Positions 12,295 through 21,764 of a DNA stretch of 37,053 nt are shown piece after piece. Within the stretch, counting starts at the first letter, position 1; every line of letters begins with the position of its first letter. Under the pieces are notes generated by a model. It ran no database searches and had not been told where the DNA came from. It was given only the letters and a program-made list of their open reading frames with translations. Source of the stretch: Flavobacteriales bacterium (GTDB lineage Bacteria > Bacteroidota > Bacteroidia > Flavobacteriales_D > Sanyastnellaceae). The DNA lies in the NCBI GenBank assembly GCA_029245065.1, contig JAQWQB010000128.1, positions 1-37,053 of the forward strand, given 5' to 3'. Both the position numbers and the translations under genes were made by a program.

Positions 12295-14544
12295 CTAATT
12301 TTTAAGTATTCTCATTATCCTGCCTTCACTTTGGAGGAAATAAACTCCTGATGATAAAGCGGAAAGGTCTAGTACTCCACCCTTCGCGACAATCGGTAGC
12401 TGTTTTCCACTTATGTCGAAAACTTTCCAGTCTGGACCCAGATTGAAGTAAACGATACCGGTTGTTGGGTTGGGGTATGGAAGTGCCTCAGTTGCAGTAA
12501 GTGCCGAAACTGACACCACTCCGTTGGGCGCATTTGGAGTCGGAGAGTCAAAGGAAACCCAACTGCTATTTCCATCCGTTTCTCGTCCATAACTAATGTC
12601 GTCTGATAGTGCTGGGAATGAGATGTAATCTACAACTCGAATATCGTTTTCTTGGAGTTTGAAAAGGATGAGTTCTTCTCCAGTTGACGCCAATTGAAAG
12701 TTGACATGGTTGATGCCTTCATCGCCTTCGTCATCAGCCCACAATAGCTGAAAACCTGATTGAGGAATGGCATTTCCAGACAATCGATACTTGAACGGAA
12801 AGTCAAGGTTGTCTGATACCCAATAGTTAGAGGGCAGGACAGGTGCTCCATTTCCATTCCACAATTCAAACCAATCATCGTAGTCCTCATCTTCGTCAGC
12901 AATGGTAAGTTGGTTGGAAGTCATCACCTCATTAATTACCAATTCGTCATTAGTGGGGCTAACCCATACACGCGAAGGGCATGGCGATTGAGCTACGAGG
13001 TTTCCCGAAGTAACAATCACTGAATAATCGATGTAGGTCGCATTTGTTGGTGCTTCGACTTGGATAGACCAAATACCATCGTTCGCAGTCAAATCTCCAT
13101 TTACACCCAAATCATTCAGTGTCAACGAGACGTCATCTGTTACGTCTGTGCTCATGACTAACTCAACTTCGTCTGCCGGCAACGATGGGGTTACGAAAAC
13201 GGTTAGATCGCCTTCCACAAAAGGAACGTTGTCTTCAATATCGAAAAGTAGATAAGGCTCGGTGCTCTCCAATTGGATGTAGTTCCATGCAAATCGATCT
13301 GTGAAATAATCGTCGATTCCAGAAGATACATGTCCACCAGCGGCTTCGTCCAACGATGTTAAAAAGGCTTCATCTACGAAACCGTAATCGTACGTTCTAA
13401 ACTCATCTTCTAGCGCCGCTTCAGTAATCAACGCTTGAATCTCTTCCAGTCTGCTATGAATGTCTTCTAATTCGGTGAACTCAGTCATGTATTGATAGAC
13501 GAAATACGTGAACCGACCTCGTAACACGTCGTTGGCCAAAAGCCTTTCATACAGAGGTCTGTTGTCTGAATTATAGTCGTAAATATTTCTTGTGGCCCAG
13601 TTAATTCCAAACCAATCTATGCCGGCGGTATTGTCTATGTCGTATTCAATGAACTCGAACTTCCCGTCGCTTGGACGTTGGAAGAGGTAGAAATTGTTGT
13701 TGTTAAGTGTGTATCCATCCCAATGGCCGATAATCAGCTCAAAGGCGAGTGTCTTTAGGTATTTATTGATGTCGAAAACCTCGTCCAGACGACAATGCAA
13801 TTCGGAAGAAGAAGTATTATTCAAGACATCAATAAAATGAGCAAGCCCGCGGTAGTCATCTGCATCTTTATTGGTCTTCAATTCATAGGTGCGAACTCCG
13901 TTCCAAGGAGCAGTCTTGTACTCTTCAGGGTTGGAAGAGATATAGTTTAAGTCGGCAGGGTAGTGGCATTTGAATAAATTACCTGCTGCTGTTCCGTAGT
14001 GCCTTTCTAGGAAGTTTTCGTCGTAGTGCTCAACATTAATGTACAGACCTGCGTACGTTTCATTGATGTACACACGGGAATAAGAAACGAAAGGAGCTAC
14101 CAAACCGGCTTCTTGAGCCATTTCCCATCCGATTTTTGAACGCATGATGGAAGGGTCATTGTGCTCACCGTTGAGGTTAAGTTTTTGAACCCCATTCCAA
14201 GTGGCACCGGGACTAAACGTATTGAATGAGACCTTGAACGATTTTTTTGCCGCCAGTCTAGACGTGTTTCCTCTCAACCGGAACCCCACATTTTCAACCG
14301 TGTCTGTGAGCTGGTTACTTTGAAAAATAAAGGTAGCTGGGTATTCGTGGTTCGAAAAGAGACTATCCTCTAGGTAAATCGTCGTGATGTCTTCAAGGGC
14401 AATTTCAATCTTGATGGTCGTCACTTCATCGGCCGGATAAACAGGTAAACTTCCTTCAGAAGCCCACTGTCCGAGCAAATCATTACCACTACTACAAAGT
14501 AGAAGTGTGGCGCAAAGGAAACACAGTGAAGCTCGGTTAATCAA
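12295..14544 (-). CDS. CotH-like kinase-fold secreted protein with lamin-tail and T9SS sorting domains
   Basis: A 749-residue protein with a signal peptide (CFLCATLLLCSSG region). A CotH domain covers about residues 40-420. It shows GFRLRGNTSR, the Lys-rich AAKKSFKVSF, KLNLNGEHNDPSIMRSKI, AGLYINVEHYDENF, the catalytic-loop-like HWDGYTLNNNNFYLF (Asp276) and EYDIDNTAG (Asp302/Asp304, DFG-like). An Ig-like stretch follows, then a lamin-tail domain (about 535-650; ELVINEVMTSN to VDYISFP), then a T9SS sorting tail (PYPNPTTGIVYFNL, SGVYFLQ). CotH proteins of spores phosphorylate proteins; activity here is unproven. The start is TTG at 14544: a TGA in the same frame at 14554-14556 excludes anything longer, and the next Met is past the conserved domain start. 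It lies 14 bp after the Nudix regulator gene. Confidence 0.88.
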   Translation of the reverse strand: MINRASLCFLCATLLLCSSGNDLLGQWASEGSLPVYPADEVTTIKIEIALEDITTIYLEDSLFSNHEYPATFIFQSNQLTDTVENVGFRLRGNTSRLAAKKSFKVSFNTFSPGATWNGVQKLNLNGEHNDPSIMRSKIGWEMAQEAGLVAPFVSYSRVYINETYAGLYINVEHYDENFLERHYGTAAGNLFKCHYPADLNYISSNPEEYKTAPWNGVRTYELKTNKDADDYRGLAHFIDVLNNTSSSELHCRLDEVFDINKYLKTLAFELIIGHWDGYTLNNNNFYLFQRPSDGKFEFIEYDIDNTAGIDWFGINWATRNIYDYNSDNRPLYERLLANDVLRGRFTYFVYQYMTEFTELEDIHSRLEEIQALITEAALEDEFRTYDYGFVDEAFLTSLDEAAGGHVSSGIDDYFTDRFAWNYIQLESTEPYLLFDIEDNVPFVEGDLTVFVTPSLPADEVELVMSTDVTDDVSLTLNDLGVNGDLTANDGIWSIQVEAPTNATYIDYSVIVTSGNLVAQSPCPSRVWVSPTNDELVINEVMTSNQLTIADEDEDYDDWFELWNGNGAPVLPSNYWVSDNLDFPFKYRLSGNAIPQSGFQLLWADDEGDEGINHVNFQLASTGEELILFKLQENDIRVVDYISFPALSDDISYGRETDGNSSWVSFDSPTPNAPNGVVSVSALTATEALPYPNPTTGIVYFNLGPDWKVFDISGKQLPIVAKGGVLDLSALSSGVYFLQSEGRIMRILKN

Positions 14545-14558
14545 AAGAGGGTATCAGT

Positions 14559-15266
14559 TTAATCCTCAGGGTTTTCTTTGTCGAACCGGAAAAGTTGAGC
14601 GGGCTTATGAAACACTCCCTGTTGCTTTTCATCCAACGGAATCACCTGATCCATTTTCTTAATGTTCTTTCTGAAGTTACGCTTGTCTAGCTTTTTGTCC
14701 AAGATAATCTCGTACAACAATTGGAGCTGACTAAGTGTAAATTTCTCTGGCAAGAGTTCAAAACCAATGTGCTTTGAATCCAGCTCTTCGCGTAAAACGG
14801 TTAATGCTTTTTCAGCAATATCATTGTGGTCAAAGGCCAAATCAGGAATCTCATTCACGTCTACCCAAATTGCTTTACCTGCAAAAGAGGACGGTTGAGG
14901 TTGATAGTCTTCCATCTTCACCAACGAATAATAGGCCACAGTAATCACTCTTCGCTCAGGATTTGCTCTGAAGCTTCTTAACCAGTCTTGGTCTTTCAGT
15001 CCTTTAACACGTTGAGGATCTCCAAAGGTGTGAAACTGCTTCAAGTAGATACCGTCAAGCGAAGTAAGCTCCTTCAGCACACGTTCAGCAGATGCGTCTA
15101 AGCTTTCGTCTAGGTAAACCAAATCTCCCGGTAAGGCGGTCTGCACTTGGTCCTTCGAAAGCGAGCCAGACTCATCAAGGCCCTGTTCGATTAACAATAC
15201 TTTTAGTCCTTCGCCATCAAATCCGAAAAGGACACAGTCAACTGATACGTCTAATTGATTTTGCAC
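14559..15266 (-). CDS. Nudix-domain transcriptional regulator (NrtR/AraR-like), likely controls the alpha-glucan locus
   Basis: A 235-residue protein. An N-terminal Nudix fold (about 5-140) has VDCVLFGFDGEGLKVLLIEQ, LPGDLVYLDESLDASAERVL and FGDPQRV...RVITVAYYSLV. A C-terminal winged-helix region (about 165-235) has KFTLSQLQLLYEIIL, LDKRNFRKNIKKM and GVFHKPAQLFRF. This is the NrtR-type architecture known for DNA-binding regulators, including AraR of Bacteroides. The Nudix box REUxEE reads R62-V-L-K-E66-L, so two of three catalytic Glu are missing and hydrolysis is unlikely. The start is GTG at 15266; a TAA three codons upstream bounds the frame. It heads the minus-strand locus and is divergent from the pfkA operon, the usual place for a local regulator. 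The effector is unknown; a maltodextrin or sugar-phosphate ligand is inference. Confidence 0.85.
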   Translation of the reverse strand: MQNQLDVSVDCVLFGFDGEGLKVLLIEQGLDESGSLSKDQVQTALPGDLVYLDESLDASAERVLKELTSLDGIYLKQFHTFGDPQRVKGLKDQDWLRSFRANPERRVITVAYYSLVKMEDYQPQPSSFAGKAIWVDVNEIPDLAFDHNDIAEKALTVLREELDSKHIGFELLPEKFTLSQLQLLYEIILDKKLDKRNFRKNIKKMDQVIPLDEKQQGVFHKPAQLFRFDKENPED

Positions 15267-15513: not shown

Positions 15514-16497
15514 ATGAAAGATCAAATCAAGAAAATTGCTGTGCTCACATCTGGGGGAGACTCTCCGGGGATGAACGCAGCCATTCGTGCGGTAGTGAGA
15601 GCTGCGGTTTTTCACGAAATTGAGGTGGAAGGCGTTTTTCAAGGGTATGATGGGCTTATCAAAGGAGACTTCAAACGACTGAATGTACGTTCGGTGGCGA
15701 AGATTCTAGGCAGAGGAGGAACCATCCTTAAATCTGCTAGATCTGCTGAATTCATGACGAAGGAAGGAAGACAAAAGGCCTTTGATAATCTCAAGAACCG
15801 CAACGTTGATGCGTTAATCACCATCGGTGGTAACGGTACCTTCACTGGAGCTCATATTTTTCATGAAGAATTTGGATTGCCCGTGATGGGAATTCCTGGA
15901 ACCATCGACAATGATTTGTTTGGTTCTGATAACACCATTGGATTCGACACCGCTACAAATACGGTAGTGGAAGCCATCGATAAGATCCGTGATACTGCCA
16001 ACAGCCATAACCGTCTCTTTTTTGTAGAAGTAATGGGCCGTGATGCAGGATTCATTGCCTTGCGCTCTGGTATTGCTACCGGAGCCATTGCCGTGCTCAT
16101 GCCCGAAGAGGAAATGAGCATCGATGAGCTGATTGAAGTACTTGAGAAAGGTGCCGAAAGCAATAAAACAAGTAGTATCGTAATTGTTGCTGAAGGGGAT
16201 GCCAATGGAGGCGCGTACGAAGTGGCAAGAAAAGTGAATCAACGTTATTCACAATACGAAACGAGGGTTACGGTCCTCGGACATATTCAACGAGGCGGTG
16301 TGCCTAGTTGTTGGGACAGGGTGCTTGCCAGTAGAATGGGAGTTGCCGCTGTCGAAGGACTTATCAACGGACACAAAGATGTCATGATAGGCATCATCAA
16401 CGACAAAGAGGAATATGTAAAGCTAAATGACGCGATTTCGCAAAAAGCTGAGCCAAATGCTGAGGAAATGCGCATCGCCAAAATTCTATCGATTTAA
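15514..16497 (+). CDS. pfkA: 6-phosphofructokinase
   Basis: A 327-residue bacterial PfkA-type enzyme, which phosphorylates fructose-6-phosphate to fructose-1,6-bisphosphate in the cytoplasm. Motifs in order: AVLTSGGDSPGMNAAIR (ATP loop, about 9-25), RGGTILKSAR, IGGNGTF (105-109), PGTIDND (catalytic Asp132, Asp134 pair), VEVMGRDAGFIAL, and GHIQRGGVPSCWDR (allosteric/substrate region). Gly108 favours ATP over pyrophosphate. The Mg-binding Asp of the usual GGDG is Asn107 here, which is odd. First gene of the plus-strand operon, 12 bp before gap; divergent from the Nudix regulator. Confidence 0.95.
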   Translation: MKDQIKKIAVLTSGGDSPGMNAAIRAVVRAAVFHEIEVEGVFQGYDGLIKGDFKRLNVRSVAKILGRGGTILKSARSAEFMTKEGRQKAFDNLKNRNVDALITIGGNGTFTGAHIFHEEFGLPVMGIPGTIDNDLFGSDNTIGFDTATNTVVEAIDKIRDTANSHNRLFFVEVMGRDAGFIALRSGIATGAIAVLMPEEEMSIDELIEVLEKGAESNKTSSIVIVAEGDANGGAYEVARKVNQRYSQYETRVTVLGHIQRGGVPSCWDRVLASRMGVAAVEGLINGHKDVMIGIINDKEEYVKLNDAISQKAEPNAEEMRIAKILSI

Positions 16498-16509: not shown

Positions 16510-17505
16510 ATGACAGCACAACGTGTTGCAATTAACGGCTTCGGCCGAATAGGAAGATTGAGTCTTCGCCAACTAATCAAGAAGCAAGGAGTAGATATCG
16601 TTGCGGTGAATGACCTAACAGACGTGAACACCCTAGCACACTTATTCAAGTGGGACAGTATTCACGGGAAGTACCCTGGAACAGTTGAAGTTCAAGACGG
16701 ACAGTTAGTAATTGACGGTGATGTTATTGAAGTTTTCGCTGAGAGAAATCCTTCTGACTTGCCATGGGCGAAGTTGAATATTGATGTAGTGATTGAATCT
16801 ACAGGTGTATTCAGAGACAGAGCTGGAGCTGGCAAGCACATCGAAGCTGGAGCGAAAAACGTTGTAATCAGTGCGCCTGCTAAAGGTGACATTACAACTG
16901 TAGTGCTCGGCGTGAACGAAGAGGTGCTTTCAAAAGGAGATAACATCATTTCGAACGCATCTTGTACAACCAACTGCTTGGCACCTATGGTGAAGGTATT
17001 GGATGATGTATTCGGAGTTGAAAAAGGATTTATTACAACAATCCACGCTTACACTTCTGACCAAAGTATTCAAGATGCACCTCACAGCGATTTGAGAAGA
17101 GCACGTGCTGCGGCCATGAGCATGATTCCTACTACAACAGGAGCTGCCAGTGCAGTAGGCCTTGTTTTGCCTAAGATGAAAGGGAAGTTAGACGGTAGCG
17201 CCGTTCGTGTACCAACACCAGACGGATCGCTTACAGACCTAACGGCTATTCTTTCGAAAGAAGTGACTGCTGAGCAAGTGAATGCCGCAATGAAGTCGGC
17301 CTCAGAAGGAGCGTTGAAAGGAATTCTAGAATATACAGATGAACCACTTGTATCAGTAGATATTGTGGGGAACACACATTCTTGCATCTTTGACAGTTCG
17401 TTAACTTCGGCTAACGGAACGTTGGTGAAGTTGTTAGGTTGGTATGATAATGAAGTAGGTTACTCTTCAAGAGTAGCAGATTTAGTAGTGAAACTGGGGA
17501 AGTAA
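16510..17505 (+). CDS. gap: Glyceraldehyde-3-phosphate dehydrogenase, type I
   Basis: A 331-residue GAPDH that oxidises glyceraldehyde-3-phosphate to 1,3-bisphosphoglycerate with NAD. It has an N-terminal Rossmann fold (INGFGRIGR, residues 8-16) with VNDLTD, where Asp35 favours NAD over NADP. The active site is SNASCTTNCLAP (Cys152), with His179 in TTIHAYTSDQ. Further motifs are RRARAAAMSMIPTTTGAA and the C-terminal WYDNEVGYSSR. Full length for the family. Second in the operon, 19 bp before the sugar kinase gene. Its clustering with pfkA and maltose phosphorylase suggests a copy induced for alpha-glucan catabolism, though it could be the only gap of the cell. Confidence 0.97.
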   Translation: MTAQRVAINGFGRIGRLSLRQLIKKQGVDIVAVNDLTDVNTLAHLFKWDSIHGKYPGTVEVQDGQLVIDGDVIEVFAERNPSDLPWAKLNIDVVIESTGVFRDRAGAGKHIEAGAKNVVISAPAKGDITTVVLGVNEEVLSKGDNIISNASCTTNCLAPMVKVLDDVFGVEKGFITTIHAYTSDQSIQDAPHSDLRRARAAAMSMIPTTTGAASAVGLVLPKMKGKLDGSAVRVPTPDGSLTDLTAILSKEVTAEQVNAAMKSASEGALKGILEYTDEPLVSVDIVGNTHSCIFDSSLTSANGTLVKLLGWYDNEVGYSSRVADLVVKLGK

Positions 17506-17524: not shown

Positions 17525-18394
17525 ATGATACTCATAGCAGATAGTGGTTCCACGAAATGTGATTGGATTTACATTGACGAAAAAGGAACAGAATTAGGGC
17601 TTTTCAAAACCATGGGACTCAATCCATATTTTCATGATGAAAAGGTGGTAAGTGAAACATTAAGGTCAAATCCTGACCTAATGAAAATCGTAAACGAAGT
17701 AGAATACATTTACTTCTACGGCGCGGGCGCCTCTACACCACATCTGTGTTCAATCATTGAACGTGGAATCAAAGAGGTGTTCAATGCTTCCAAAGTTACG
17801 GTTGATCACGATCTTGTTGGTGCGGCCTATGCCGTATATCAAGGTGCACCTTCCATCACATGTATACTTGGAACCGGTTCGAATTCATGCTTCTTTGACG
17901 GAAAAGAAGTAACTGAAAACGTTCCAGCCCTGGCGTACATCCTTGGCGATGAAGCCTCAGGAAGTTGGTTTGGAAAGCAACTGCTCAGAGAATACTTCTA
18001 CAAACAACTTCCTGCAGACTTGCACGAAGCGTTTGAGAAAGAGTTTCAAATGGATAAAGATATGTTGGTTGAGCGTGTGTACAACGCACCTCATGCCAAC
18101 GTATACTTGGCTAGTTTCATGAAGTTCGTTGGGAAGTTCAACGATCACCCACACGTTGTCAATTGGGTGAAAGATGGTATCAGAACGTTCATCAGAATCC
18201 ACGTTCATTGCTACGAAAACTACAAAGAAGTTGAAACACACTTCATTGGCTCAATAGGCCATTATTTCAAGCCTTGCTTGGAAGCAGTTTGTGCCGAAGA
18301 AGGTGTAAATTTGGGCGTGATAGATCGAAAACCAATCTATGGTTTGGCGAAATATCACGTAAATTACGTCATCCCTCAATTACAGAAACTATGA
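17525..18394 (+). CDS. BadF/BadG-type sugar kinase (N-acetylglucosamine kinase-like; possibly glucose kinase)
   Basis: A 289-residue ASKHA-fold kinase. Phosphate-1 motif IADSGSTKCDW lies at the N-terminus, phosphate-2 motif ILGTGSNSCFFDG near residue 118-130, and the adenosine-side LGDEASGSWFGKQLL near 140-155. The family includes N-acetylglucosamine and glucosamine kinases. In this operon, maltose phosphorylase releases free glucose and no ROK or hexokinase gene is present, so glucose phosphorylation is a reasonable inference, but the substrate cannot be read from sequence. The stop overlaps the next start as ATGA (4 bp), showing tight coupling with the methylglyoxal-synthase-like gene. Confidence 0.85.
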   Translation: MILIADSGSTKCDWIYIDEKGTELGLFKTMGLNPYFHDEKVVSETLRSNPDLMKIVNEVEYIYFYGAGASTPHLCSIIERGIKEVFNASKVTVDHDLVGAAYAVYQGAPSITCILGTGSNSCFFDGKEVTENVPALAYILGDEASGSWFGKQLLREYFYKQLPADLHEAFEKEFQMDKDMLVERVYNAPHANVYLASFMKFVGKFNDHPHVVNWVKDGIRTFIRIHVHCYENYKEVETHFIGSIGHYFKPCLEAVCAEEGVNLGVIDRKPIYGLAKYHVNYVIPQLQKL

Positions 18395-18810
18395 TCCCAA
18401 AGTCAATTGCTGTCATTGCACACAACAAAATGAAACCGGTGCTCACCTCTTTCCTGAAAGAACGAGAAGAGTGGGTGTGGGGTAAAAAGCTATTGGCAAC
18501 CGGATTAACAGCTGATTTCGTTGAACAAGGCGGCGTAAAAGTAAATGTCGAACATTTGAACCCTGGAAAAGAAGGAGGCTACAGCCAACTTCGTTCTGCG
18601 GTTGAAATGGACCAAGTCGAAATGGTTCTCTTTTTCCGAGACCCTGAAATAGAGCAAGACTACGAAGACGAAATTGTAGCTTTTGTAAAAGCGTGTAATA
18701 GGAAGAACATTCCACTTGCAACCAATCCAGCAAGTGCTGAACTTTTGATTCTCGGTTTAATCAAAAAAGAAGCAGCAGAAAAAGTTAGAAATAGAACGAT
18801 AGTAGAATAA
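18391..18810 (+). CDS. Methylglyoxal-synthase-like protein lacking catalytic residues
   Basis: 139 residues from the ATG at 18391, which overlaps the kinase stop as ATGA; an open frame continues upstream but only antisense-like residues are added. The MGS fold is recognisable: IAVIAHNKMKP, LLATGLTADFV, VLFFRDPE and NIPLATNPASAELLI. Compared with E. coli MgsA as I recall it, Asp20 is Asn12, the catalytic Asp71 is Tyr64 and His98 is Tyr91; only the Asp91 equivalent (Asp84) remains. It therefore probably does not make methylglyoxal from dihydroxyacetone phosphate. It may be a regulatory or binding MGS-like domain, or have another activity. Its place between a sugar kinase and beta-phosphoglucomutase points to a role in sugar-phosphate metabolism. 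Confidence 0.8.
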   Translation: MIPKSIAVIAHNKMKPVLTSFLKEREEWVWGKKLLATGLTADFVEQGGVKVNVEHLNPGKEGGYSQLRSAVEMDQVEMVLFFRDPEIEQDYEDEIVAFVKACNRKNIPLATNPASAELLILGLIKKEAAEKVRNRTIVE

Positions 18811-18818
18811 ACGGAGCC

Positions 18819-19484
18819 ATGATAAAAGCGTGCATTTTCGATATGGATGGAGTCATTGTTGACTCTGCGAAATACCATTTCTTAGCATGGCAACGTCTCG
18901 CCGCAGACCTCAGCATTACCTTCACAGAGGAAGACAATGAAAAGCTCAAAGGACTAAGTCGTGTTGATAGCCTCGAACGCATTCTCGAAAAAGGAGATTT
19001 GCAGCTAGATAACGATACCAAGTTGGCATTGATGGACCAGAAAAACCAGTGGTACCTGGAATCAATCAAAGAAATGAAGCCCGAAGAAGTGCTCCCTGGT
19101 GTGCGTGAATTTCTTGTATCACTTCAAGAGAACGGCATTGGAATAGCATTGGGGTCGTCTTCAAAAAATGCCCAACTCATCTTAGAGAAGTGCAATCTCA
19201 CAACATTTTTCAAAAGTGTCATTGACGGAAACAAGGTTACCTTTTCAAAACCAGATCCGGAGGTGTTCTTAAAAGGAGCCTCGGAATTGAATGTTTCGCC
19301 AAAAGACACAGTCGTCTTTGAAGACGCCATAGCAGGAGTAGCAGCAGCGAACAGCGGCGGTTTCTTCTCCGTAGGAATAGGCGATGCCGCTTCATTAACA
19401 GAAGCGAGGATAGTGATACCTGGATTTGAAAATTTCACATTAAGTGCCCTTCAATCAATCGTTGAAGACCAGCAGAATAACTAA
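18819..19484 (+). CDS. pgmB: Beta-phosphoglucomutase
   Basis: A 221-residue HAD-superfamily enzyme converting beta-glucose-1-phosphate to glucose-6-phosphate. The nucleophile motif is FDMDGVIVDS (Asp8 forms the phospho-aspartate, Asp10 is acid/base). The cap region has HFLAWQRLA and LKGLSRVDSLERIL, the substrate-binding segment typical of beta-PGM. HAD motif II is ALGSSSKNA, motif III the KPDPEVFLKGA lysine, and motif IV VVFEDAIAGV. It lies 8 bp after the MGS-like gene and 3 bp before the GH65 phosphorylase gene. The GH65-pgmB pairing is the classic maltose phosphorylase pathway, which strongly supports the assignment. Confidence 0.95.
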   Translation: MIKACIFDMDGVIVDSAKYHFLAWQRLAADLSITFTEEDNEKLKGLSRVDSLERILEKGDLQLDNDTKLALMDQKNQWYLESIKEMKPEEVLPGVREFLVSLQENGIGIALGSSSKNAQLILEKCNLTTFFKSVIDGNKVTFSKPDPEVFLKGASELNVSPKDTVVFEDAIAGVAAANSGGFFSVGIGDAASLTEARIVIPGFENFTLSALQSIVEDQQNN

Positions 19485-19487
19485 GTC

Positions 19488-21764
19488 ATGATAAAGTATC
19501 TTGAAGAAGATGAGTGGAACGTAATTGAAAAAGACTTCCACCCTAATCATCAACGCAGTTCAGAGTCGATTTTCAGTATTGGAAATGGCCGGTTCGGTCA
19601 ACGAGCGAATTTTGAAGAAACGTATTCAGGCGATTCACTTCAAGGAAGTTACATAGCTGGTGTCTATTATCCAGATAAAACCAAAGTTGGTTGGTGGAAA
19701 AACGGTTACCCAGAATACTTCGCTAAAGTGCTCAATAGCGTTAATTGGATTGGCGTTAATGTGTGGGTAAATGGCGAAGAAGTAGACCTCGCAAAAGCGG
19801 AAGTCATCTACTTCGAGCGCAAGCTCAACATGAAGCACGGTTTGCTCCAAAGAAATTGCACGGTGAAATTGGAGAACGGTATGCAAGTGACCTTGGTAAC
19901 AGAGCGCTTTTGTAGCATGGCCAATGATGATCTAGCAGCACTCAAATACACCGTTTCTACAGATCAAGACGCTGAAGTTCGTATCGAATCCTATTTGGAT
20001 GCCGACGTTTCAAACGAAGACACCAATTGGGATGAAAAATTTTGGGTCGAAGGCGAAACGAATAGCTTCGACAGTGGATTGAGCCTTTCATGTGCTACCA
20101 AAAAGACAGATTACCATGTTGGAGTAGCCATGGTTAGCGAACTTTCTGTTGCGCATCAATTATTAGATGTAAGCGAAGAAGAGTTCGCCCAAATGAAAGT
20201 CACAGAGCGTTTCCAAACGCAAGTGAAAGCAAATCAACAGGTAGAACTGACGAAATTCATCTGCTTGGTCAATTCAATGAATGTGCCCAAAGCGGATGTG
20301 CTGAATGAAGCTGAAAAAGGAGCAGGACAAGCCCATACCCTGGGCTATGACTCCCTTAAAAGTGCACACGAATCCGCTTGGGAGTCTATTTGGGAAACGA
20401 GTGATATCGTCATTGAAGGCGACGTTGCTGCCCAACAAGGAATTCGCTTCAACATCTTCCATCTGAATCAGACGTATTCCGGTAAAGACGATCGTCTTAA
20501 CATCGGTCCGAAAGGATTCACAGGTGAAAAGTACGGTGGTTCTACCTACTGGGATACCGAAGCATATTGCATTCCGTTCTACCTTGGAACACATGACAGC
20601 GCCATTGCAAGACAGTTGTTGGTATACCGATTCAAGCAATTAGACAAGGCCATAGAGAACGCTGAAAAACTGGGCTTCAAAAACGGTGCTGCCTTGTACC
20701 CAATGGTGACCATGACTGGTGAGGAGTGCCACAACGAGTGGGAGATCACCTTCGAAGAAATCCATCGAAATGGAGCCATTACTTTCGCCATCTATAATTA
20801 CGTAAGATTCACCAATGACAAATCCTATCTCGCTGAATACGGATTGGATGTGCTCATGGGCATTAGTAGATTCTGGGCACAACGTGTGAATTGGTCTGAA
20901 GCGAAGGGAGCTTATGTGATGCTGGGAGTTACTGGTCCCAATGAATATGAGAACAATGTAAACAACAACTGGTACACAAACTACATAGCGCGTTGGTGCT
21001 TGAAGTATACACTCAAAGTGATCATCGAACTGAAAGAGAATGATCCTGATGCCTACGCTGAAAAAGTAGCTAAGTACCAGTTTAATGAAAAGGAAGAAAC
21101 CCTTCTGTGGGCTGATATTCTTGAGAAAATGTACTTGCCGCAAATGGAAGGCTCTGAGGTGTTCTTACAGCAAGATGGATTCCTAGACAAAGAGCAATTG
21201 AATGTAGCTGACCTGGCGAAGGAAGACAGACCAATCAATCAGAAGTGGTCGTGGGACCGAATTCTTCGAAGCATTTTCATCAAGCAAGCAGACGTCCTGC
21301 AGGGAATGTATTTCTTCGCTCATCATTTCACCGACGAGCAAGTAGAGGCTAACTTCGACTTCTATGAACCTAAAACAGTTCATGAATCAAGTCTCTCACC
21401 TTGCATTCATGTTATTCTGGCTTCGCGCATCAATCGTCAGGAAAAGGCGTATGAACTCTATTTGAGAACATCACGTTTGGACCTAGATGATTACAACCAC
21501 GAGGCGTATCAAGGCCTGCACATTACCGCTATGGCAGGCACATGGATGGCCGTTGTTGAAGGGTTCGGAGGAATGAAAGTAGAAGGGCATCAATTAGCGT
21601 TGAGCCCAAGCTTGCCGAAGCAATGGGATGCATTCAACTTCAGAGTCAACTTCCGGGGAAGCGCTGTTAGAGTCAATGTCACCAAAGATGGCACGAACTT
21701 ATCTCTGGAGACCGGTCAAGCATTGACTGTGTTACTCCATGGAAAGCAAGTGGAAGTGTATTAG
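19488..21764 (+). CDS. GH65 maltose phosphorylase
   Basis: A 758-residue GH65 enzyme of full family length. An N-terminal beta-sandwich (about 1-270) contains NGRFGQRANFEE. The (alpha/alpha)6 barrel has GGSTYWDTEAYCIPFYLGT (substrate and phosphate side), ECHNEWEITFEEIHRNGA (general acid Glu, about residue 417), GVTGPNEYENNVNNNWYTN, and INQKWSWDRI. The C-terminal region has LHITAMAGTWMAVVEGFGG. The HNEWE motif and neighbouring pgmB favour maltose phosphorylase (maltose + Pi to glucose + beta-glucose-1-phosphate) over trehalose or kojibiose phosphorylase, but specificity needs an assay. No signal peptide, so cytoplasmic. Last gene of the operon; its stop overlaps the stop of the convergent gene by 3 bp. 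Confidence 0.92.
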   Translation: MIKYLEEDEWNVIEKDFHPNHQRSSESIFSIGNGRFGQRANFEETYSGDSLQGSYIAGVYYPDKTKVGWWKNGYPEYFAKVLNSVNWIGVNVWVNGEEVDLAKAEVIYFERKLNMKHGLLQRNCTVKLENGMQVTLVTERFCSMANDDLAALKYTVSTDQDAEVRIESYLDADVSNEDTNWDEKFWVEGETNSFDSGLSLSCATKKTDYHVGVAMVSELSVAHQLLDVSEEEFAQMKVTERFQTQVKANQQVELTKFICLVNSMNVPKADVLNEAEKGAGQAHTLGYDSLKSAHESAWESIWETSDIVIEGDVAAQQGIRFNIFHLNQTYSGKDDRLNIGPKGFTGEKYGGSTYWDTEAYCIPFYLGTHDSAIARQLLVYRFKQLDKAIENAEKLGFKNGAALYPMVTMTGEECHNEWEITFEEIHRNGAITFAIYNYVRFTNDKSYLAEYGLDVLMGISRFWAQRVNWSEAKGAYVMLGVTGPNEYENNVNNNWYTNYIARWCLKYTLKVIIELKENDPDAYAEKVAKYQFNEKEETLLWADILEKMYLPQMEGSEVFLQQDGFLDKEQLNVADLAKEDRPINQKWSWDRILRSIFIKQADVLQGMYFFAHHFTDEQVEANFDFYEPKTVHESSLSPCIHVILASRINRQEKAYELYLRTSRLDLDDYNHEAYQGLHITAMAGTWMAVVEGFGGMKVEGHQLALSPSLPKQWDAFNFRVNFRGSAVRVNVTKDGTNLSLETGQALTVLLHGKQVEVY

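Follow-up and report, generated by a model that had tools for sequence, protein, structure and literature searches.

The window, by which we mean the whole 37,053-nucleotide stretch of Flavobacteriales DNA that was analysed, encodes a small protein with the methylglyoxal synthase (MGS) fold in which the catalytic aspartate is replaced by a tyrosine. We call its gene mgsL. Judged from the residues lost, MGS chemistry is likely to be gone, and we propose, with a probability of about 0.45, that this former MGS paralogue acts as a non-catalytic, ligand-binding regulator of upper glycolysis. The gene lies in an operon with a divergent regulator in front of it:

14559-15266, minus strand: divergent NrtR/AraR-type Nudix regulator, over the cut-offs of PF21906, PF19368 and PF00293.
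15514-16497, plus strand: pfkA, ATP-dependent 6-phosphofructokinase (TIGR02482, 413.4 bits, cut-off 371.35).
16510-17505, plus strand: gapA, glyceraldehyde-3-phosphate dehydrogenase, syntenic, named from its sequence without a family-library scan.
17525-18394, plus strand: BadF/NagK-type sugar kinase, below the cut-offs of PF01869 and NF046058.
18391-18810, plus strand: mgsL, 139-aa MGS-fold protein without the catalytic Asp (Tyr64).
18819-19484, plus strand: pgmB, beta-phosphoglucomutase (TIGR01990, 234.4 bits, cut-off 189.4).
19488-21764, plus strand: GH65 family protein (PF03632, E 5.8e-135; NF010380, 1123 bits, cut-off 838).

By its family matches the GH65 protein is likely a maltose phosphorylase, and the PDB relatives of the kinase include N-acetylglucosamine kinases and a putative MurNAc kinase. 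The operon as a whole would bring maltose and glucose into glycolysis. The Nudix regulator, present in 11 of the 17 stretches compared, may control the pfkA-mgsL operon. A large protein with a CotH kinase domain is encoded at 12295-14544; a secretion tail and a lamin tail domain also match it, below their cut-offs, and such a protein was found near the operon in 8 of the 17 stretches.

The assignment of mgsL to the MGS fold was supported by sequence and by structure prediction. Its protein scored 28.7 bits against PF02142, the Pfam MGS family (E 1.5e-6, cut-off 24.1), and its best PDB sequence match was an MGS (E 5.7e-18). Two equivalog models disagreed on the function: the score against the NCBIfam model NF003559 'methylglyoxal synthase' was 90.3 bits (cut-off 84), but that against TIGR00160 (MGSA) was 78.6 bits, far under a cut-off of 146.9 that the canonical MgsA of the same genome passed with 148.1. 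An AlphaFold model built on an input alignment of 49 sequences reached a pLDDT of 91.8 and a pTM of 0.86. Foldseek and structural comparison matched this model to MGS structures with Z of 16.9-21.8, among them 1wo8_B (Z 21.8, rmsd 1.3, 123 residues aligned), 6f2c_A (Z 19.9, rmsd 1.8, 124 aligned) and 1egh_A, the E. coli MGS with phosphoglycolate (Z 18.6, rmsd 2.1, 127 aligned). Residues 1-130 of the model corresponded to 9-137 of the 1egh chain, a range that would fit a numbering difference of 8 initially and of 7 past a one-residue insertion. The next fold in the list, from which the absence of any other fold proves nothing, was the allosteric domain of carbamoyl-phosphate synthetase (CPSase; 1jdb_B, Z 12.9, rmsd 5.3, 124 aligned). 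These results bear out the sequence-only reading in its first claim, that of an MGS-like protein whose fold motifs survive.

An orthologue search with the mgsL protein covered 60 relatives, of which 33 had any MGS match, and intact mgsL was present in 15 genomes (our own and 14 others). Searches with a clade profile were then made in 395 genomes of the class, 399 of the order and 395 of the phylum. A clear score gap separated full-length clade members (at least 164 bits) from all other matches (at most 103 bits). Full-length members occurred in 17 genomes of the order search, our own included, and in 7 of the class search; the phylum search placed them in G000 (our own genome) and G004 only. 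This gave 20 distinct members, all from Bacteroidota, with a partial member of 44 aa in G026 left uncounted. In a tree with 51 other MGS rows the 20 formed one side of a branch with support 100/100 and a stem of 1.44 changes per column, in an alignment of few columns, with 16 of 68 inner branches open and an outgroup that was not clean. Clade members with named records come from Flavobacteriales MAGs (L032-L037), of which one carries the label Chryseobacterium gleum. No description of the clade was found in the literature searched, a scope that left subscription journals mostly outside.

Residue numbering follows E. coli MgsA from MG1655. Alignment with this protein agreed with the three substitutions that had been read by eye from the letters:

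18424-18426, plus strand: mgsL codon 12, where Asn replaces E. coli Asp20; 13 of 20 orthologues have Asp.
18580-18582, plus strand: mgsL codon 64, where Tyr replaces the catalytic base Asp71 of E. coli; all 20 orthologues have Tyr or Phe.
18661-18663, plus strand: mgsL codon 91, where Tyr replaces E. coli His98; the 20 orthologues have Tyr in 17 cases, His in 2 and Phe in 1.

To place these changes, the 20 clade rows were compared with 129 other MGS rows, from which identical sequences, anything shorter than 100 aa and loci with more than 110 bits to mgsL (clade duplicates) had been left out; this control leans towards mgsL-like rows, as up to 74 of the 129 were drawn from matches sorted by their likeness to the clade. 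At position 71 the clade had Tyr (14) or Phe (6), and the control had Asp in 116 rows, Glu in 8, Ala in 2, Val in 2 and Ser in 1. Position 98 was less distinctive, with His 104, Tyr 19, Gln 2, Ser 2, Met 1 and Phe 1 in the control, and position 20 least so (clade Asp 13, Asn 7; control Asp 127, Asn 2). The aromatic residue at codon 64 was thus universal, but the full Asn/Tyr/Tyr set was no signature of the clade (Asn12 in 7 of 20, Tyr91 in 17 of 20), and of the three changes only the loss of Asp71 marks it. In the excerpt of PMC7843640 consulted, Asp71 acts as the base and removes the pro-S proton at C3 of dihydroxyacetone phosphate (DHAP), His19 stabilises O3, and His98 helps but is not critical for the chemistry itself. 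Because Tyr and Phe exchange at mgsL residue 64, Tyr64 has probably not become an acid-base catalyst of a new kind or a substitute base, and no conserved new acid was found around it in E. coli columns 65-72 of the clade alignment.

Other parts of the pocket, whose geometry was judged by sequence alignment, were kept. His19, Lys23, Thr45, Gly66, Gly69, Gly70 and Asp91 were invariant in all 20 members, so a pocket survives, and position 101 was always acidic (Asp 11, Glu 9; control Asp in 125 of 129). The earlier statement that the active site is replaced is too strong, given that His19, Lys23, Thr45, Asp91 and the acid at 101 all persist. The phosphate site, listed in the same excerpt of PMC7843640 as Lys23, Ser65 and Thr45-Gly49, is incomplete throughout the clade: Lys23, Thr45 and Gly46 were present in every member and Thr48 in 18, the other 2 having Ser, but Gly49 in only 2, and Thr47 and Ser65 in none. 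Position 47 carried Leu 12, Arg 5, Met 2 and Gln 1 against Thr in 124 of 129 control rows, and position 65 carried Pro 16, Glu 2, Ala 1 and Arg 1 against Ser in 110. With Thr47 and Ser65 lost in every member, phosphate binding may therefore be altered or lost. Position 67 (mgsL residue 60), Pro in 113 control rows, had become Arg in 10 members, Lys in 7, Asn in 2 and Val in 1. Outside the clade, five Clostridia MGS proteins (L046, L048, L084, L093, L095) carried Ala, Ser or Val in place of Asp71, possibly a second, independent loss of the base, and eight further rows had Glu there.

Our own genome also encodes a canonical MgsA, at G000:C18:7956-8303 on the minus strand. Its residues at positions 20, 71, 98 and 101 are Asp, Asp, His and Asp. 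It scores above the cut-offs of both NF003559 and TIGR00160 and is 37% identical to the mgsL protein over 116 residues, from a different contig. By names taken from sequence, it sits just after an alpha-amylase-like gene and before a prmC-like methyltransferase gene (L002 613-3254). Canonical matches accompanied mgsL in 9 of the 15 genomes (G000, G004, G011, G014, G015, G024, G031, G033, G043) and were not found in the other 6 (G006, G007, G016, G018, G027, G059); completeness is 94-99% for G007, G018 and G027. Phosphoglucose isomerase (PGI), triosephosphate isomerase (TIM) and class II aldolase were all present in our own genome, and as far as tested mgsL was not supported as a missing glycolytic enzyme.

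The neighbourhood of mgsL was largely conserved. Coupling to the kinase through ATGA, and adjacency to pgmB, had been noted from the sequence; indeed the mgsL ATG overlaps the kinase stop at 18391-18394, and pgmB begins directly after mgsL, at 18819. The kinase lay directly upstream in 17 of the 20 members, with a 4-base overlap in G000, G004, G024, G014, G015, G033, G031 and G011, and pgmB lay directly downstream in 16 of 20. The most constant neighbour was pfkA, clustered with mgsL in 16 of 17 sufficiently long loci (the stretches of G006, G567 and G649 end too soon to tell). In G178 the order was pfkA-kinase-mgsL-pgmB, and in G043 and G059 mgsL came directly after gapA, with no kinase beside it. 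G402, the most divergent clade member, had mgsL behind an AcrB-type RND efflux operon, 33 bases after the AcrB-type gene (L037 6317-10390), with no match to glycolytic operon genes within 10 kb upstream. Among 30 kinase loci in all, 11 were those of mgsL genomes and 19 were inspected in relatives; in 16 of these 19 the kinase was followed directly by pgmB, without mgsL. Taken with G043 and G059, these loci make the kinase unlikely as an obligate partner, and they suggest that mgsL is an optional cassette in an operon of wider distribution.

The phosphofructokinase of this operon has GGNGT at codon 107, where an aligned solved phosphofructokinase (PDB) has GGDGS, whose Asp we equate with Asp103 of E. 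coli PfkA, which binds magnesium. Asn occupied this site in 27 of 30 loci, and Asp in G014 and G018 (with mgsL) and G051 (without it); in further mgsL genomes Asp was found in G043, G059 and G178 and Asn in G362. Since Asn occurs with and without mgsL, a coupling between the two was rejected. To judge from the motif, PfkA proteins with GGNGT may be altered kinases.

mgsL is under purifying selection. By the Nei-Gojobori method its dN/dS was 0.020 in the pair G004/G024 and 0.077 in G031/G011, and in G567/G649 dN was 0.022 at a dS of 0.824; G015/G033 and G007/G027 were saturated. The four other operon genes gave 0.018-0.040 in the first two pairs, so that in G031/G011 mgsL evolved faster than its four neighbours. 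A decaying pseudogene copy without function, for which the loss of the catalytic residue might speak, is hardly credible given the two computable ratios, the open reading frames in 20 genomes and the conserved gene order.

In the mechanism we favour, an old MGS paralogue would have ceased to make methylglyoxal and kept an MGS-like oligomer. Its remodelled pocket would bind a phosphorylated metabolite (inorganic phosphate, a triose phosphate or a hexose phosphate), and its binding state would be signalled to an upper-glycolytic enzyme, the operon's own phosphofructokinase being the likeliest. PfkA is proposed as the target on two grounds only: no neighbour is more constant, and the route through GH65 and pgmB joins glycolysis just before phosphofructokinase. 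The sequence-only reading had suggested an allosteric partner of the operon's enzymes, which is one of the plausible possibilities. mgsL would then work as the MGS-fold allosteric domain of CPSase does, but as a separate protein. Consistent with such a regulator are the base lost in all 20 members, the pocket residues kept, the fully supported clade, the low dN/dS, pfkA in 16 of 17 loci, the separate MgsA, the presence of PGI, TIM and class II aldolase, and the CPSase domain as the next fold. Against it stand the loss of Thr47 and Ser65, the higher dN/dS in G031/G011, the location in G402 and the operons that lack mgsL. In a narrower proposal, which we consider unlikely, a stand-alone sensor derived from a dead MGS would govern phosphofructokinase or the entry of glucose in a Bacteroidota lineage, with the former DHAP/phosphate pocket as its read-out, and would be a regulatory subunit of a type new to glycolysis.

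A changed but still catalytic enzyme also fits the data. The pocket could have been rebuilt for a different sugar phosphate of the operon pathway, as would suit an operon made of sugar-phosphate enzymes and the long stem branch of the clade. The changes run through the clade (aromatics at 64 and 91, Lys or Arg at 60, Thr47 and Ser65 lost) in place of the scattered pattern of decay, and His19, Asp91 and the acid at 101 could serve catalysis. We nevertheless hold a new enzyme to be somewhat unlikely, and a regulator of upper glycolysis the more likely of the two: no step among those tested is obviously missing, 16 of the 19 relatives' kinase loci do without mgsL, and no new acid is conserved near residue 64.

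It is improbable that mgsL is still an MGS, perhaps a slow one in which another acid, such as Asp/Glu101, does the proton transfer. The score above the NF003559 cut-off, the invariant His19 and Lys23, the universal acid at 101 and the non-critical role of His98 in the chemistry (as the excerpted PMC7843640 has it) would allow this, as would the three nearly complete genomes with mgsL and no other MGS match. The aromatic residue at 71 in every member, the loss of two phosphate contacts, the TIGR00160 score and the second, canonical MGS kept in 9 of 15 genomes argue against it. Modulation of the canonical MgsA through mixed oligomers, which the common fold and those same 9 genomes would permit, is less probable again, given the 6 genomes without a canonical match, three of them 94-99% complete, and the 37% identity over 116 residues of our own two copies, encoded on different contigs.

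If the regulator reading is true, annotation hides a regulator of glycolysis, as the NCBI model NF003559 would name mgsL methylglyoxal synthase. Metabolic models would then wrongly add a second methylglyoxal bypass to mgsL genomes, and in G007, G018 and G027, which have no other MGS match, the wrongly modelled bypass would be their only one. It would also mean that an MGS has turned into a non-catalytic protein outside carbamoyl-phosphate synthetase.

Three known systems come close. MgsA itself (EC 4.2.3.3; TIGR00160, NF003559; PDB 1b93, 1egh, 6f2c) has in common with mgsL the fold and the length and, with the clade, His19, Lys23, Thr45, Gly66, Gly69-70, Asp91 and an acid at 101; the mgsL clade differs in Tyr or Phe for Asp71, in the loss of Thr47 and Ser65, in Lys or Arg for Pro67 in 17 of 20 members, and in forming a separate clade. 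In B. subtilis, MgsA is controlled by Crh, which ties MGS to the control of carbon flux (in the part of PMC5270733 consulted). There an active MGS is the controlled target, whereas mgsL encodes an MGS-fold protein without the base, and the likeness lies in the carbon-flux control of the former. The third is the MGS-like allosteric domain of CPSase (PF02142; PDB 1ce8, 2yvq, 5dou), which resembles the mgsL model in fold (Z 11.3-12.9) and has a regulatory role in CPSase; human CPS1, in the excerpt of PMC4655335 consulted, has an effector-binding C-terminal domain with an MGS-like fold. Two of 22 proteins (the 20 clade members, our own MgsA and E. coli MgsA) weakly matched the CPSase large-subunit model NF003671, with a best E of 1.1e-4. 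The CPSase domain is 11-18% identical to mgsL and forms the C-terminal part of a large subunit, whereas mgsL is a stand-alone open reading frame of 139 aa whose neighbours are pfkA, gapA, the kinase, pgmB and GH65.
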